Source: Clostridia bacterium
GTDB lineage: Bacteria; Bacillota; Clostridia; Peptostreptococcales; Acidaminobacteraceae
Assembly (NCBI GenBank): GCA_014859095.1
Contig: JACUUV010000006.1
Coordinates: forward strand, 1-64,000
DNA: 64,000 nt
Direction of reading: 5' to 3'
Shown: piece by piece, positions 4,866 through 55,310 of the stretch
Position numbering within the stretch: the first letter of the stretch is position 1
Layout: every line of letters begins with the position of its first letter
Program-made: the position numbers and the translations under genes
The notes under the pieces: generated by a model
Told to the model about the DNA's origin: nothing
Databases searched by the model: none
The model's input: the letters and a program-made list of their open reading frames with translations, nothing else

Positions 4866-5386
4866 CGCGTTTCACCTACTTCACTGATGAACTTATTGAT
4901 AAGCTCCTTGTGATCGGCTTCATTGAGGTCTTTTTCAACCACTCTCGACGCAGCCATGATCGTAAGATGTGAAATCTGATCTTTTAACTCATTAACAGCT
5001 TTAACTCTTTCTCTTTCAAGTTCTCGATGGGCATTGAGCTTCATGCTTTCAATATCCGATTCCGCGGCTCTTATGATTTCAAAAGCTCTGTTTTCAGCGC
5101 GCAGAGTGTGTTTTTTGACAATCTCCTTGCCTTCTTCTTCAGCCAGGGCGAGTTTGCCCTCGTACTCAGCTTTATGGCCCAGTGCGATGGCGTCCATGTC
5201 CTTTGCGTGTTGGATTTGATCTTTGATCTCGTTTTCACGAGTCTGCATGAATTTTGTTACTGGCCCAAATAAAAACTTTCTAAGAATTAAATATAGGATG
5301 AGCGTATTGATCAGCTGGAATGCAAAAGTCCAGTTAATTTCTACAAGTCCCAATCTAAGACTCGCAGTTGTCAAGTCCATACTCAT
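4853..5386 (-). CDS. atpF: ATP synthase subunit b
   Basis: Peripheral stalk subunit b, 177 residues. One N-terminal membrane helix (about residues 15-36) is followed by a long charged amphipathic helix with the typical Glu/Ala/Lys pattern (EYEGKLALAEEEGKEIV). The start ATG at 5386 has an AGGAGG site 6 bases upstream. Only one b-type gene is present, so the stalk is probably a homodimer. Confidence 0.96.
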
Positions 5387-5421
5387 GTAAATCCTCCTTT
5401 AAGGGATTATTTCCTATATTT

Positions 5422-7018
<1,597 letters not shown>

Positions 7019-11161: not shown

Positions 11162-12259
11162 TTAAATTTTGAACACACGTCCTTCGGATGCTTTATCCAG
11201 CCGATTCATAATGGCATGCCCAAGCTCATTTTCACTGACTCCGTGTACCAAAACGATGTCAGCGCCGAGTTCATCCAATTTTCTTAAATCTTTGAAAAGA
11301 TTTCTTGCAAATGTGTCCAAGTCTTTTGAACTGCCCTCTTTCATGAAATGCACTTTTTCACGATGACGTTTGTAGACAGCATCGTCCTCAAGCAATCTTT
11401 CAAGAACCAAAGCATCCTCCTCAAAGAACATGATTCCTATGCTCCCGCCCGATTCGACTACTTCTATTATTCTACCATAGAAAGTTCTGATCACAGCCAT
11501 AATATCTCCAGAATAAACACTCACTTCAGCATCAGGGGCGTAGTGTCTGTACTTCATTCCCGGTGACTTTGGCACGAGATCCTGCCGACTTTTGTCAACA
11601 AGTGCGGGATCGACCTCACAACCACCAACACACTTCGCAATCATTTCTCGCGTGATCTTACCTGGCCTTAGTATGACCGGAACTTCACCTGTCACATCAA
11701 GCACCGTGGATTCAAGTCCGACATGGGAATCCCCACCATCTACGATGCAATCCACACGGCCGTTCATATCTTTCAGGACGTATTTGACATCCGTGGGACT
11801 TGGCTTGCCGGATAGATTTGCTGAAGGTGCTGCAACGGGAACTCCTGAAAGCTCGATAAGCTTGAGAGCCACAGGATGGTTCGGCATTCTCACACCTACC
11901 GTTTCGAGTCCTCCTGTGACCTTATATGGCACATGGTCTTTTTTTTTGACTACAAAAGTGATCGGTCCCGGCCAGAAAGCTTCCATCAGGATTTTCGCGT
12001 AAGGCTTGACTTCCCCGGCGAGTTCACCCAGCATATCCAGTCTGGCTATATGCACGATCAAAGGATTGTCCGACGGTCGCCCCTTCGCTTCATAAATGGC
12101 ATCCACTGCCGATTCACTTAGCGCGTTTGCGCCAAGTCCGTAAACCGTTTCCGTAGGAAATGCGACCGTCTTTCCGGCTGCGAGCATTTTACCAGCCACA
12201 ACGAGTTGCTCTTCCATGATTTCCGGGTCGATTTTTATAATCAATGTCTCTTTTCTCAT
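11162..12259 (-). CDS. ywlC: Threonylcarbamoyl-AMP synthase
   Basis: 365 residues, Sua5/YwlC/YrdC type with the extra C-terminal Sua5 domain. It makes L-threonylcarbamoyladenylate from threonine, bicarbonate and ATP, the first step of t6A tRNA modification. Visible motifs are AFPTETVYGLGANA, KGRPSDNPLIVHI and SANLSGKPSPT. The ATG at 12259 is favoured over a GTG 9 bases upstream because of the GGTGG site 5 bases before it. Confidence 0.94.
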   Translation of the reverse strand: MRKETLIIKIDPEIMEEQLVVAGKMLAAGKTVAFPTETVYGLGANALSESAVDAIYEAKGRPSDNPLIVHIARLDMLGELAGEVKPYAKILMEAFWPGPITFVVKKKDHVPYKVTGGLETVGVRMPNHPVALKLIELSGVPVAAPSANLSGKPSPTDVKYVLKDMNGRVDCIVDGGDSHVGLESTVLDVTGEVPVILRPGKITREMIAKCVGGCEVDPALVDKSRQDLVPKSPGMKYRHYAPDAEVSVYSGDIMAVIRTFYGRIIEVVESGGSIGIMFFEEDALVLERLLEDDAVYKRHREKVHFMKEGSSKDLDTFARNLFKDLRKLDELGADIVLVHGVSENELGHAIMNRLDKASEGRVFKI

Positions 12260-12284
12260 TCGTTCCACCTTTACCCTAAAACAA

Positions 12285-51797: not shown

Positions 51798-51920
51798 TAA
51801 GGTTGTTAGCCTTTTTACAAAGGATTCACACAAAATCTAAAAATCATTCCCAAATATGTCTGGAGTGATGTTATAATAACTAAAGATGAATAGCTATTGA
51901 TATAGATGTGGAGGATCATT

Positions 51921-52619
51921 ATGGGCGAACCTAGAAAAAGAGTCAAAGCACCTGAAATCAAATTGGACAATGACACCTACCTGAGAATTCCAATTAAAAC
52001 GCACGTCGTTATGGAAAATGACCAATTGATCGATGTGGTTAAAAAATATACTGAAGAATTTATCAAACCGGGTGATCTTTTGTTTGTGACTGAAAAGATA
52101 GTCGCCATTACTCAAGGTCGTGCCATACCTGTGAAGGACATCACACCGAGACCTCTTGCAAAACTACTTTCTACTTTTGTGATGAAGACTCCTGCGGGAA
52201 TAGGACTTGGAATGCCTGAAACTATGGAGATGGCTCTTAGAGAGTGCGGAATACCCCGTATACTTTGGGCATCCTTTGCTAGTGCCGTTACAAAATTGTT
52301 AGGCAAAAAAGGTGTTTTTTATAAAATTGCAGGCTACAAGGCTTCTTCAATAGATGGTCCGACACCAAATACCCTTCCTCCTTACAATCAGTATGTAGTT
52401 CTAGGGCCTGACCGACCGGATTCAGTCGCAAAGGAACTTAGTGAACTCTATGATGACATACAGGTTGCGGTTGTGGACATCAATGATCTGGATGGTTCTG
52501 TACTTGGTGTGTCCCATGCCAGCATGAACCGGGTAAAGATCGCCAAAATATTGAAGGACAATCCTCTCGGTCAGGATCATGAGCAGACGCCGCTCGGCAT
52601 CATTAGAAAAACAAGCTGA
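51921..52619 (+). CDS. CofE-like F420 gamma-glutamyl ligase family protein
   Basis: 232 residues from the ATG at 51921 (GGAGG site). It matches the F420-0:gamma-glutamyl ligase fold: DVVKKYTEEFIKPGDLLFVTEKIVAITQGR, then PTPNTLPPYNQYVVLGP and VAVVDINDLDGSVLG. No other F420 genes (cofC, cofD, fbiC) are in the window, and most Clostridia lack F420. It may therefore ligate glutamate to something else. Single gene ending at a terminator. Confidence 0.75.
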   Translation: MGEPRKRVKAPEIKLDNDTYLRIPIKTHVVMENDQLIDVVKKYTEEFIKPGDLLFVTEKIVAITQGRAIPVKDITPRPLAKLLSTFVMKTPAGIGLGMPETMEMALRECGIPRILWASFASAVTKLLGKKGVFYKIAGYKASSIDGPTPNTLPPYNQYVVLGPDRPDSVAKELSELYDDIQVAVVDINDLDGSVLGVSHASMNRVKIAKILKDNPLGQDHEQTPLGIIRKTS

Positions 52620-52682: not shown

Positions 52683-53342
52683 TTATTCCGTACTTTTGAC
52701 AAACTTGTTGACCCGTTCCGAATTTCCCGGGGAATTTCCGACATAGAAGACCACATCTCCCTCAAAAAAAACCAGCTTAGGGCCAGGAGACAACACGAGC
52801 TCACCCGTTCTGTTGACTCCAATAATTGTCGCTCCGGTATGTTCCCAAAATCTGATGTCACCAATGGAACGTCCAATCAAAGGGCTACCTTCCAGAATTT
52901 TGAACTCCAACGGATAGATGATACCCACGTTTTTAAGCAGAACAGCTTCTTCTATCAACTTGTCGAGCTTTTCCAGCATATTGTCTTCAATCAGTCTTTT
53001 TTCTTCAATCATTTTTGCTATGTTCTCACGTAACGATAGCACATGATCCTTGGATCGGTATTCCTTTATGTAGGCTACGGCTGCTGTTTTGGATTTGATC
53101 AACATTCCCTTTTTTTCAATCACCTCTACGACATTAAGTTCTTCGAGCAGTTTTAGTGCCCTTCTAATTGTTTCTGGGGAAACGCTGTATTTTCCAGAAA
53201 GTGTCGATCTGCCTTTGATGATATCTCCTATTTTCCACTCGTCATTGACAATACTGTACGCAATATCCAGAGCTATTTTCTCATATTTTGAGGTTTTGTT
53301 GTCTGTTTCCTGTTTTTTATTTGGATTTTCAACTGGATTCAA
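52683..53342 (-). CDS. GntR-type regulator with RCK_C domain (BusR-like)
   Basis: 219 residues. N-terminal GntR winged helix (KGRSTLSGKYSVSPETIRRALKLLEELNVV), a coiled helical linker (RENIAKMIEEKRLIEDNMLEKLDKLI), then an RCK_C domain (GSPLIGRSIGDIRFWEHTGATIIGV). This is the architecture of BusR, whose RCK_C binds c-di-AMP to repress osmolyte uptake. Likely start is a TTG at 53342 with AAGGATGG upstream; no ATG fits. No transporter lies next to it, so its target is unknown. Confidence 0.85.
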   Translation of the reverse strand: MNPVENPNKKQETDNKTSKYEKIALDIAYSIVNDEWKIGDIIKGRSTLSGKYSVSPETIRRALKLLEELNVVEVIEKKGMLIKSKTAAVAYIKEYRSKDHVLSLRENIAKMIEEKRLIEDNMLEKLDKLIEEAVLLKNVGIIYPLEFKILEGSPLIGRSIGDIRFWEHTGATIIGVNRTGELVLSPGPKLVFFEGDVVFYVGNSPGNSERVNKFVKSTE

Positions 53343-53633: not shown

Positions 53634-53665
53634 AAATAGGAAGATGACCTCTTCCTATTTTTTTT
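53634..53665. terminator. Terminator after the DUF3787 gene
   Basis: An 11-bp perfect stem (53634-53644 with 53650-53660) and eight T on the plus strand. The stop of the convergent GNAT-CHAD gene lies in it. Confidence 0.88.
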
Positions 53666-55214
53666 CGTCCATATACTCACTCATTGCTTTGCACACCTCA
53701 AGATAAGCTTCATCAGAGGCCTTTGAATAGTAAGCGTGATCCTCAATAAGTTTGACAATCAAGGGTTCGTCGTCGAGCTCATATTTTCCGACAAATCTCA
53801 AGTTGACACATGTGTCATGCAACAATTTCGCATGCGATTGAAACACTTCCAACTTATTGTTTATATTTTGAAGTTCAACATGGTCAGGCATGAGAATTTC
53901 ATGCACGTACTTCATTTTTTTTGCAAGCATTCGTTTGGAATGAATGTACTTCTCTTCATAACCCAGCAATTGATCATCTTTTTCTATGAACTTTCTGAAC
54001 AATTCGCATTGTCTACCCCAATCGCATCCTGGTTTCTGTTTGTTTTCTGCATGCATCAGTTTGACCTTTGTGCTCGAAAACCTGAAGGTCGACATGCGCT
54101 TGGCATCCAAGATCAGTCTTGCACGAAGGGGTTGTTTGAGCACAGAAAGCCGCTTCAGGACAGAGTCGTTCATGATATCGCCATAACCGTGTTCAAACAC
54201 ATCAATTTCACGAATCATCGAGGTTTTATCAAAATACCTTTTGGAATGCGTGTCGAAAAAACGATAATCTCCAGGTCTCATGAAAGGCATGAAAAAGAAG
54301 AGTAAAGCCCTGAAACGGCGAATGCTTTCTCTATAATCGTGGATACTCAAATGATTGAAATCCTGGTTGATCATACTTTTCAGTTTTTCGTCCATTGCTT
54401 CCAAATGTCTGTCAAAAAGCGTCGATAGTTGGTCTTCACTTAGCACGGCACCCCTCCTGCTCTCGAGATAACGGTTTTTTATACCAAACCATACGACCTC
54501 GCTATGACGTTTGAATCCCAAAGACTCTGCAAGTGCGATCGATGGTGCGTTTTCTATCCAAATATGCAAATATGGCAGTTGATTTTTCTTGAGTATGCTA
54601 TTGATCAAATGTTTACAAAGCCATTCTCCAACGCCTCTTCTTCTGTGACCTTCCAGTGTGTACATGATTCCCATGGAACCATCTTCACGCTGGACTACCC
54701 ATGAAACCGCTTCACCACACAATCTGGCACAAAAAGTGGTTTCGTTTTTTATAATGCCTTCAATATAACCGATGCCATCGTCTTTAAATGCATAATTTTC
54801 AAATACCATATCTAGATCATCAAAATTGAGACAGTCGATTTCGTAGATTGCTTCATCAAAACTGTAATGGTCTTCAATATTCGCATATGGTTCTCCATCA
54901 TAATAATACAACCAACAAAACTCTGACCATTCTTCTTTATACTTTGTCGTCAACAAATCAAATTGTCTTCTGGGCACACCTGCAAAGTTAAACTCGGTAT
55001 GTTTGACATCGGATTTACAGTATTCTTCAAAATGATGAATAAACTTCTCTGGACTTTCATCTGATGGCACTATGAACCCGCCTTGTTCCATGACAAAAAA
55101 ATCTTCTTTGACATACCAGGATACATCAAGTGTTTGGTTGATTGTGCGACCTATGATGTTGCTATATTTTATCGGATCCCCGTTCAAAATCTTTTCAATT
55201 TCAATTGATTTCAT
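53655..55214 (-). CDS. GNAT-CHAD fusion protein
   Basis: 519 residues in two parts. The N-terminal half (about 1-248) has a GNAT acetyltransferase fold with the acetyl-CoA loop EGHRRRGVGEWL (188-199) and a following IENAPSIALAESLGFKRH. The C-terminal half (about 258-519) is a CHAD domain: signature HDYRESIRRFRALL with His292, Arg295, Arg299, Arg300, Arg302, and a second weaker repeat near LLHDTCVNLRFVGKY. CHAD domains bind inorganic polyphosphate. I know of no described protein with this pair. Function unknown; a polyphosphate-linked acyltransferase is one hypothesis. Confidence 0.8.
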   Translation of the reverse strand: MKSIEIEKILNGDPIKYSNIIGRTINQTLDVSWYVKEDFFVMEQGGFIVPSDESPEKFIHHFEEYCKSDVKHTEFNFAGVPRRQFDLLTTKYKEEWSEFCWLYYYDGEPYANIEDHYSFDEAIYEIDCLNFDDLDMVFENYAFKDDGIGYIEGIIKNETTFCARLCGEAVSWVVQREDGSMGIMYTLEGHRRRGVGEWLCKHLINSILKKNQLPYLHIWIENAPSIALAESLGFKRHSEVVWFGIKNRYLESRRGAVLSEDQLSTLFDRHLEAMDEKLKSMINQDFNHLSIHDYRESIRRFRALLFFFMPFMRPGDYRFFDTHSKRYFDKTSMIREIDVFEHGYGDIMNDSVLKRLSVLKQPLRARLILDAKRMSTFRFSSTKVKLMHAENKQKPGCDWGRQCELFRKFIEKDDQLLGYEEKYIHSKRMLAKKMKYVHEILMPDHVELQNINNKLEVFQSHAKLLHDTCVNLRFVGKYELDDEPLIVKLIEDHAYYSKASDEAYLEVCKAMSEYMDEKK

Positions 55215-55273
55215 TGTGTTCCCCTAAATTTGGTTTTTATATATTATATCAAAAAAATAGCCTCTAAGGTGAA

Positions 55274-55310
55274 AAAGAATGGAGACCCTGAATATATCTC
55301 AGAATCTCCA
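55274..55310 (-). terminator. Terminator after hemolysin III gene
   Basis: A 12-pair stem with two wobbles (55280-55291 with 55299-55310) followed on the minus strand by TTCTTTTTC. Confidence 0.75.

Follow-up and report, generated by a model that had tools for sequence, protein, structure and literature searches.

A predicted GLYAT-like acyltransferase joined to a CHAD domain in one clostridial genus, with a candidate inner translation start kept at the junction

Few modules are known to bind polyphosphate. CHAD is among them, and its reported partners are mainly enzymes that metabolise polyphosphate. One gene of an Acidaminobacteraceae genome raises the question of what an acyltransferase would do on such a module, and whether the two are truly joined. 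The gene lies in the window, the 64,000-nucleotide stretch of DNA that was analysed, at positions 53655-55214 of the minus strand, and reads as a single ATG-started open reading frame of 519 amino acids without interruption. A sequence-only reading had described it as a GNAT acetyltransferase fused to a CHAD domain. Pfam searches of the whole chain placed the GNAT family FR47 at residues 162-242 (E 6.9e-16, 58.5 bits) and CHAD at residues 267-470 (E 3.9e-6, 27.4 bits), both above the curated cut-offs of 22.1 and 25.6 bits, respectively. Both folds are also seen in an AlphaFold2 model of the whole chain (32-row alignment; mean pLDDT 91.7), in which the domains themselves are predicted with confidence and the relative placement of the two halves is uncertain (pTM 0.56). 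The fusion in one reading frame was thereby confirmed, and the sequence details given for it were right wherever they were compared, with the acetyl-CoA loop RRRGVG located at residues 191-196 and the CHAD signature HDYRESIRRFR beginning at H292. A CYTH match was absent from the whole chain in Pfam up to E 1, and L070 does yield one. The features of the locus are collected in Table 1.

Table 1. Positions of the features of the fusion gene and its flanks, in window coordinates
Feature	Position	Strand	Extent, basis or remark
GLYAT/FR47-type GNAT N-acyltransferase half (predicted)	54465..55214	-	residues 1-250; Pfam, structure match, dN/dS
CHAD half, two helix bundles	53658..54449	-	residues 256-519; Pfam, structure comparison, mapped CtCHAD residues
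Junction/linker	54429..54473	-	residues 248-262; pLDDT falls to 63 in block 251-260
Inner Shine-Dalgarno AGGAGG (candidate)	54453..54458	-	present in 3/3 fused genes, same spacing
Inner in-frame GTG start, V257 (candidate)	54444..54446	-	AGGAGG-N6-GTG, at the stand-alone CHAD start position
Putative own promoter, extended -10 TGATATAAT, without a good -35	55243..55251	-	read from sequence
Terminator-like hairpin, 13 pairs and T tract	55280..55310	-	closes the upstream HlyIII/TrhA gene
Terminator-like hairpin, 3' end of fusion gene	53634..53660	-	also scored on the + strand

Two checks had been proposed for the C-terminal half, an HMM search for CHAD and a structure prediction, and the assignment came through both. 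Pfam finds CHAD there, at 30.5 bits when the half is scanned alone and in all 13 members of a subfamily alignment (best E 1.6e-12), and in the model the half folds as a CHAD bundle. Residues 256-519 of the whole-chain model matched five CHAD entries, including the polyphosphate complex 6qva, at Z 18.0-19.0. When the half was modelled alone (mean pLDDT 92.1, pTM 0.88), CHADs took ranks 1-6 of the structure comparison, five with Z scores of 18.3-18.9 across 236-259 residues and the sixth, ygiF of E. coli, at Z 12.3, with the next unrelated bundle at 12.1. A chance match to CHAD was rejected on the structure comparison together with the CHAD matches in 13 of 13 relatives. The second CHAD repeat that had been proposed is likewise present: nine helices form two bundles, with an H-x2-R-x3-K motif at residues 425-432 in the second of them, and the arrangement, judged from the model and the Z scores, fits the two four-helix bundles of CHAD, which are related by pseudo-twofold symmetry.

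Mutations have shown that His253, Arg256, Arg260, Arg296, and Arg418/Tyr419 of CtCHAD, the Chlorobium protein, take part in polyphosphate binding (Lorenzo-Orts et al. 2019, PMC6537752). The first four map to H292, R295, R299, and R335 with identical spacing (+3, +7, and +43), and Arg418/Tyr419 map to K435/Y436, of which K435 is a conservative change, so that the residues expected in the central pore of a CHAD are found and the basic residues earlier noted in the signature belong to a conserved set of polyphosphate contacts. On these grounds the CHAD half is predicted to bind polyphosphate. The host would be expected to make this polymer, because it has genes for PPX and PPK1, which are clustered with a second CHAD protein elsewhere in its genome (L047:1645-6384, G000 contig C92). 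That the subfamily now binds another anion or a protein in place of polyphosphate appears improbable, although it is this second CHAD, and not the fusion locus, that the polyphosphate enzymes adjoin. The same alternative draws on the distance in sequence from the solved CHADs, which is large (profile E 0.18), and on a net charge near neutral to acidic: the half carries +1 (pI 7.8) and its relatives -9 to +2, often slightly acidic, which is unlike the charge expected of a strong polyphosphate binder, though the contact residues are retained. It is opposed by the pore residues that were tested by mutation, all kept or conservatively changed, with H292, R295, R299, R335, and Y436 invariant in 13 of 13 rows and only position 435 varying.

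The acyltransferase half has a tandem-GNAT layout, with a degenerate N-terminal half (residues ~1-120) followed by a catalytic half (residues ~121-247). In structure comparison, model residues 1-248 aligned with bovine glycine N-acyltransferase (GLYAT, 7pk0/7pk1) at Z 22.9 (rmsd 2.9-3.0 over 237-243 positions), the two-GNAT-domain fold of GLYAT extending across the whole acyltransferase half, and residues 1-252 aligned with the Drosophila FR47-type protein 1sqh at Z 22.9 (rmsd 2.9-3.0); a profile of this half also matches GLYAT by sequence (E 4.9e-8). Membership of the GNAT superfamily is indicated by the fold and by the CoA loop, RRRGVG being of the form (Q/R)-x-x-G-x-(G/A). From the sequence alignment, the catalytic His263 of GLYAT corresponds to H217, a position occupied by His in 18 of 21 relatives, whereas Glu226, the other member of the catalytic dyad, and the glycine-binding Arg228 are not kept, S180 and G182 standing in their places. 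Because of these two replacements the half is classed as GLYAT-like and is not assigned as GLYAT, and its chemistry or its acceptor is predicted to differ from that of GLYAT. It is quite unlikely that the half senses CoA without catalysing a reaction, or that it is a dead domain: the missing Glu and Arg would fit such a role, but the CoA loop, H217, and the family-invariant D178, N222, and S225 are all present, and the dN/dS of this half among the fused genes is only 0.11-0.13. The proposal that a protein or a carried molecule is acylated stands in part. Since the nearest fold is that of GLYAT, a small amine or amino-acid-like acceptor is, as a guess by analogy, at least as likely as a protein.

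Within the genus, the fusion was found in three of the four genomes compared (G000, which is the host, G022, and G023), and the three proteins are all 519 amino acids long and gap-free in alignment, those of the two other genomes being 81-83% identical to the window protein and the three differing pairwise at 12-20% of residues. An assembly or sequencing chimaera was ruled out on the two other genomes with a gap-free linker; although the host genome is a draft of 134 contigs and the fourth genome, described below, shows that one base decides between the two states, a junction that is equally gap-free in three genomes so far diverged leaves an artefact that joined two genes with next to no probability. 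Outside the genus, 37 genomes from the rest of the family had no GNAT-CHAD fusion, nor was a further one found in a sample of the order (297 genomes), and the CHAD proteins of a 398-genome sample of the phylum lacked a GNAT partner, being joined to CYTH, to SixA, or to nothing recognised. Elsewhere, proteins related to the GNAT half have no CHAD attached. A widespread architecture was rejected on these three samples. Four weak matches from the phylum sample (L078-L081) were set aside as unlike CHAD by eye, L078 appearing to be a histidine kinase, L079 a CRP-type regulator, and L081 a radical-SAM methylthiotransferase.

The fourth genome of the genus, G024, carries the two parts as adjoining genes, for a GNAT (52-53%) and a CHAD (53-56%), that overlap by 4 nt (TTGA). 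Its junction measures 74 nt against 75 nt in the fused genes, a net difference of a single base, and in a check of the frame only, a sixth G added to the GGGGG run gave a frame that stayed open throughout. Ten genomes of the family from outside the genus encode an unfused CHAD, again close to the HlyIII/TrhA gene. In one of the ten (G015, locus L041), a frameshifted GNAT remnant was found at 5056-5469, ~1 kb upstream of the stand-alone CHAD and flanked by genes for a radical-SAM protein and an aromatic-acid exporter; because of this broken GNAT near a CHAD, the link between the two may predate the genus. The order favoured by parsimony is separate genes followed by fusion; the alternative is the reverse, with G024 either derived from a fusion that later split or carrying a base error in the GGGGG run.

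The junction itself holds what appears to be the former start of the CHAD gene. Each of the three fused genes has an in-frame AGGAGG-N6-GTG at codons 253-257. GTG257 falls where the stand-alone CHADs of L041, L042, and L045 have their ATG, 13 codons ahead of the conserved His270, and the counterpart in G024 is AGGGGG-N9-TTG, one codon further on. A scan of the host coding sequence (69 kb) for AGGAGG followed after 4-10 nt by a start codon in frame returned one other such site deep inside a gene (ORF 11162-12268), and the remaining sites, near gene starts, are probably real starts. Between G000 and either relative, codons 248-262 have a dN of 0.315 and a dS of 0.233, compared with a dS of 1.2-1.8 in the two domains, so that with a dN/dS above 1 between G000 and the other two the linker is unconserved as protein. 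Third-position identity peaks, among all 13-codon windows of the gene, in the one at codon 251 (12 of 13, against a mean of 0.50), and with 54% of its amino acids conserved this window is among the least conserved as protein. A plain binomial on third-position identity over codons 248-262 gave p = 0.019, uncorrected and for a site chosen after it had been seen, and the rank among windows is the stronger evidence of the two. Because the sites are few and the binomial reaches only this level, selection on the junction nucleotides as a translation start is suggested, not overwhelmingly, by these comparisons. In RNA folding, the inner ribosome-binding site was not consistently open across the three fused genes. 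As the ribosome-binding site and start codon that served the CHAD gene are still there, a dual product, with the full-length protein made alongside CHAD alone through use of the inner start, is plausible. The gene has the look of two neighbouring genes recently joined by read-through, with the inner start retained, a feature that the sequence-only reading had missed.

Whether the join matters to function can be approached through selection. Among the fused genes, dN/dS is 0.03-0.06 for the CHAD half, compared with the value given above for the GNAT half, from which purifying selection is seen to maintain both halves and CHAD most strictly. A passive fusion, in which a small frame change removed the stop, the halves work as before, and the tether is idle, would account for several observations, namely the net single base that separates G024 from the fused state, the linker whose protein sequence is not conserved between G000 and G022 or G023, the retained inner start, and the domain interface that is not confident in the model. 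It is nonetheless considered doubtful, as the frame has stayed open over a divergence of dS >1 in three genomes, and the overlapping genes of G024 and the decayed GNAT near the CHAD of L041 argue for a lasting functional link. The preferred reading, held with a probability of roughly 0.55, is that an active GLYAT/FR47-type N-acyltransferase is tied to a polyphosphate-binding CHAD, is located on polyphosphate or switched by it, and is one of two products of the gene. An old stand-alone CHAD gene would have come first; a GNAT gene would then have been placed directly upstream of it, and the GNAT reading frame would have run through into CHAD to give one shared frame. With the CHAD ribosome-binding site and start codon still in place, a full-length anchored enzyme and CHAD alone would both be made, and polyphosphate would carry the acyltransferase to itself, possibly on granules, or switch its activity. 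A more tentative extension of this reading is that free CHAD from the inner start might compete with the anchored enzyme for polyphosphate, the ratio of the products and the amount of polyphosphate setting the degree of anchoring. On this extension, the gene would represent a polyphosphate-addressed acylation system at an early stage after its fusion.

Comparison with known systems places the fusion beside the CYTH-CHAD proteins, such as ygiF of E. coli and TTM-CHAD of Ralstonia eutropha, which likewise have an N-terminal enzyme and a C-terminal CHAD. In those proteins the partner is a (poly)phosphatase with a triphosphate-tunnel domain, whereas here it is a predicted acyltransferase, and the N-terminal CYTH that marks the CYTH-CHAD polyphosphatases is lacking. 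The CHAD of ygiF raises enzyme activity, and the CHAD proteins of R. eutropha are located on polyphosphate granules (PMC6537752). The stand-alone proteins CtCHAD and S. chartreusis PptA have the same fold as the CHAD half (Z 18.0-19.0), and CtCHAD, SsCHAD, and PptA have polyphosphate-contact residues in common with it; they are enzyme-free, whereas the CHAD of the fusion is joined to an enzyme, is near neutral in charge, and has K435 for Arg418 of CtCHAD. Bovine GLYAT (7pk0-7pk2) and the FR47-like family resemble the other half in the tandem-GNAT fold over residues 1-248, the CoA loop, and the His at the His263 position, but GLYAT has Glu226/Arg228 against Ser180/Gly182 here, and only here is a CHAD attached. 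Other enzyme-type halves joined to CHAD, which are not acyltransferases, were seen at two loci. L075:1354-2676 (minus strand), from another family of the phylum sample, encodes a fusion of a SixA-type histidine phosphatase to CHAD, and the second CHAD protein of the host, at L047, has 389 amino acids, of which the C-terminal part matches CHAD and the N-terminal part includes an HD-like stretch (HDLGRSH) without a Pfam match.

Enzyme-CHAD fusions are therefore already known. Architectures were compared in the genome samples, and the pairing of CHAD with a GNAT or acetyltransferase was not found in the open-access literature, which agrees with the earlier remark that no described case was known; as far as that literature shows, an acyltransferase-CHAD protein is new. 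An acyltransferase partner, if confirmed, would link polyphosphate to acyl-CoA chemistry, and the fusion would show in nature what has been proposed for engineering, an unrelated enzyme directed to polyphosphate. The retained inner start offers a test case for how fusions keep an old product alive.

The fusion gene is probably transcribed on its own, because it has a terminator-like hairpin upstream, a TATAAT of its own, and a hairpin at its 3' end. TATAAT is found at the same place in G000, G022, G023, and G024, in the window ~30 nt upstream of the ATG, and is preceded by TG in G000, G023, and G024; a two-hexamer promoter scan did not flag this site. The stem and T tract of the HlyIII/TrhA terminator can also be read in G022 and G023. 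Elsewhere in the window, at 52683-53342 (minus strand), lies a gene for a 219-amino acid regulator in which a GntR helix-turn-helix is combined with a TrkA_C (RCK_C) domain, the arrangement found in the c-di-AMP-responsive regulator BusR, and a gene that looks similar is located downstream of CHAD at L037-L040 and L046, in several genera. The plus strand at 51906-52619 encodes a 237-amino acid protein with a partial match to F420-0:gamma-glutamyl ligase (PF01996, E 9e-11), and genes resembling it occur in the same neighbourhood in several genera.
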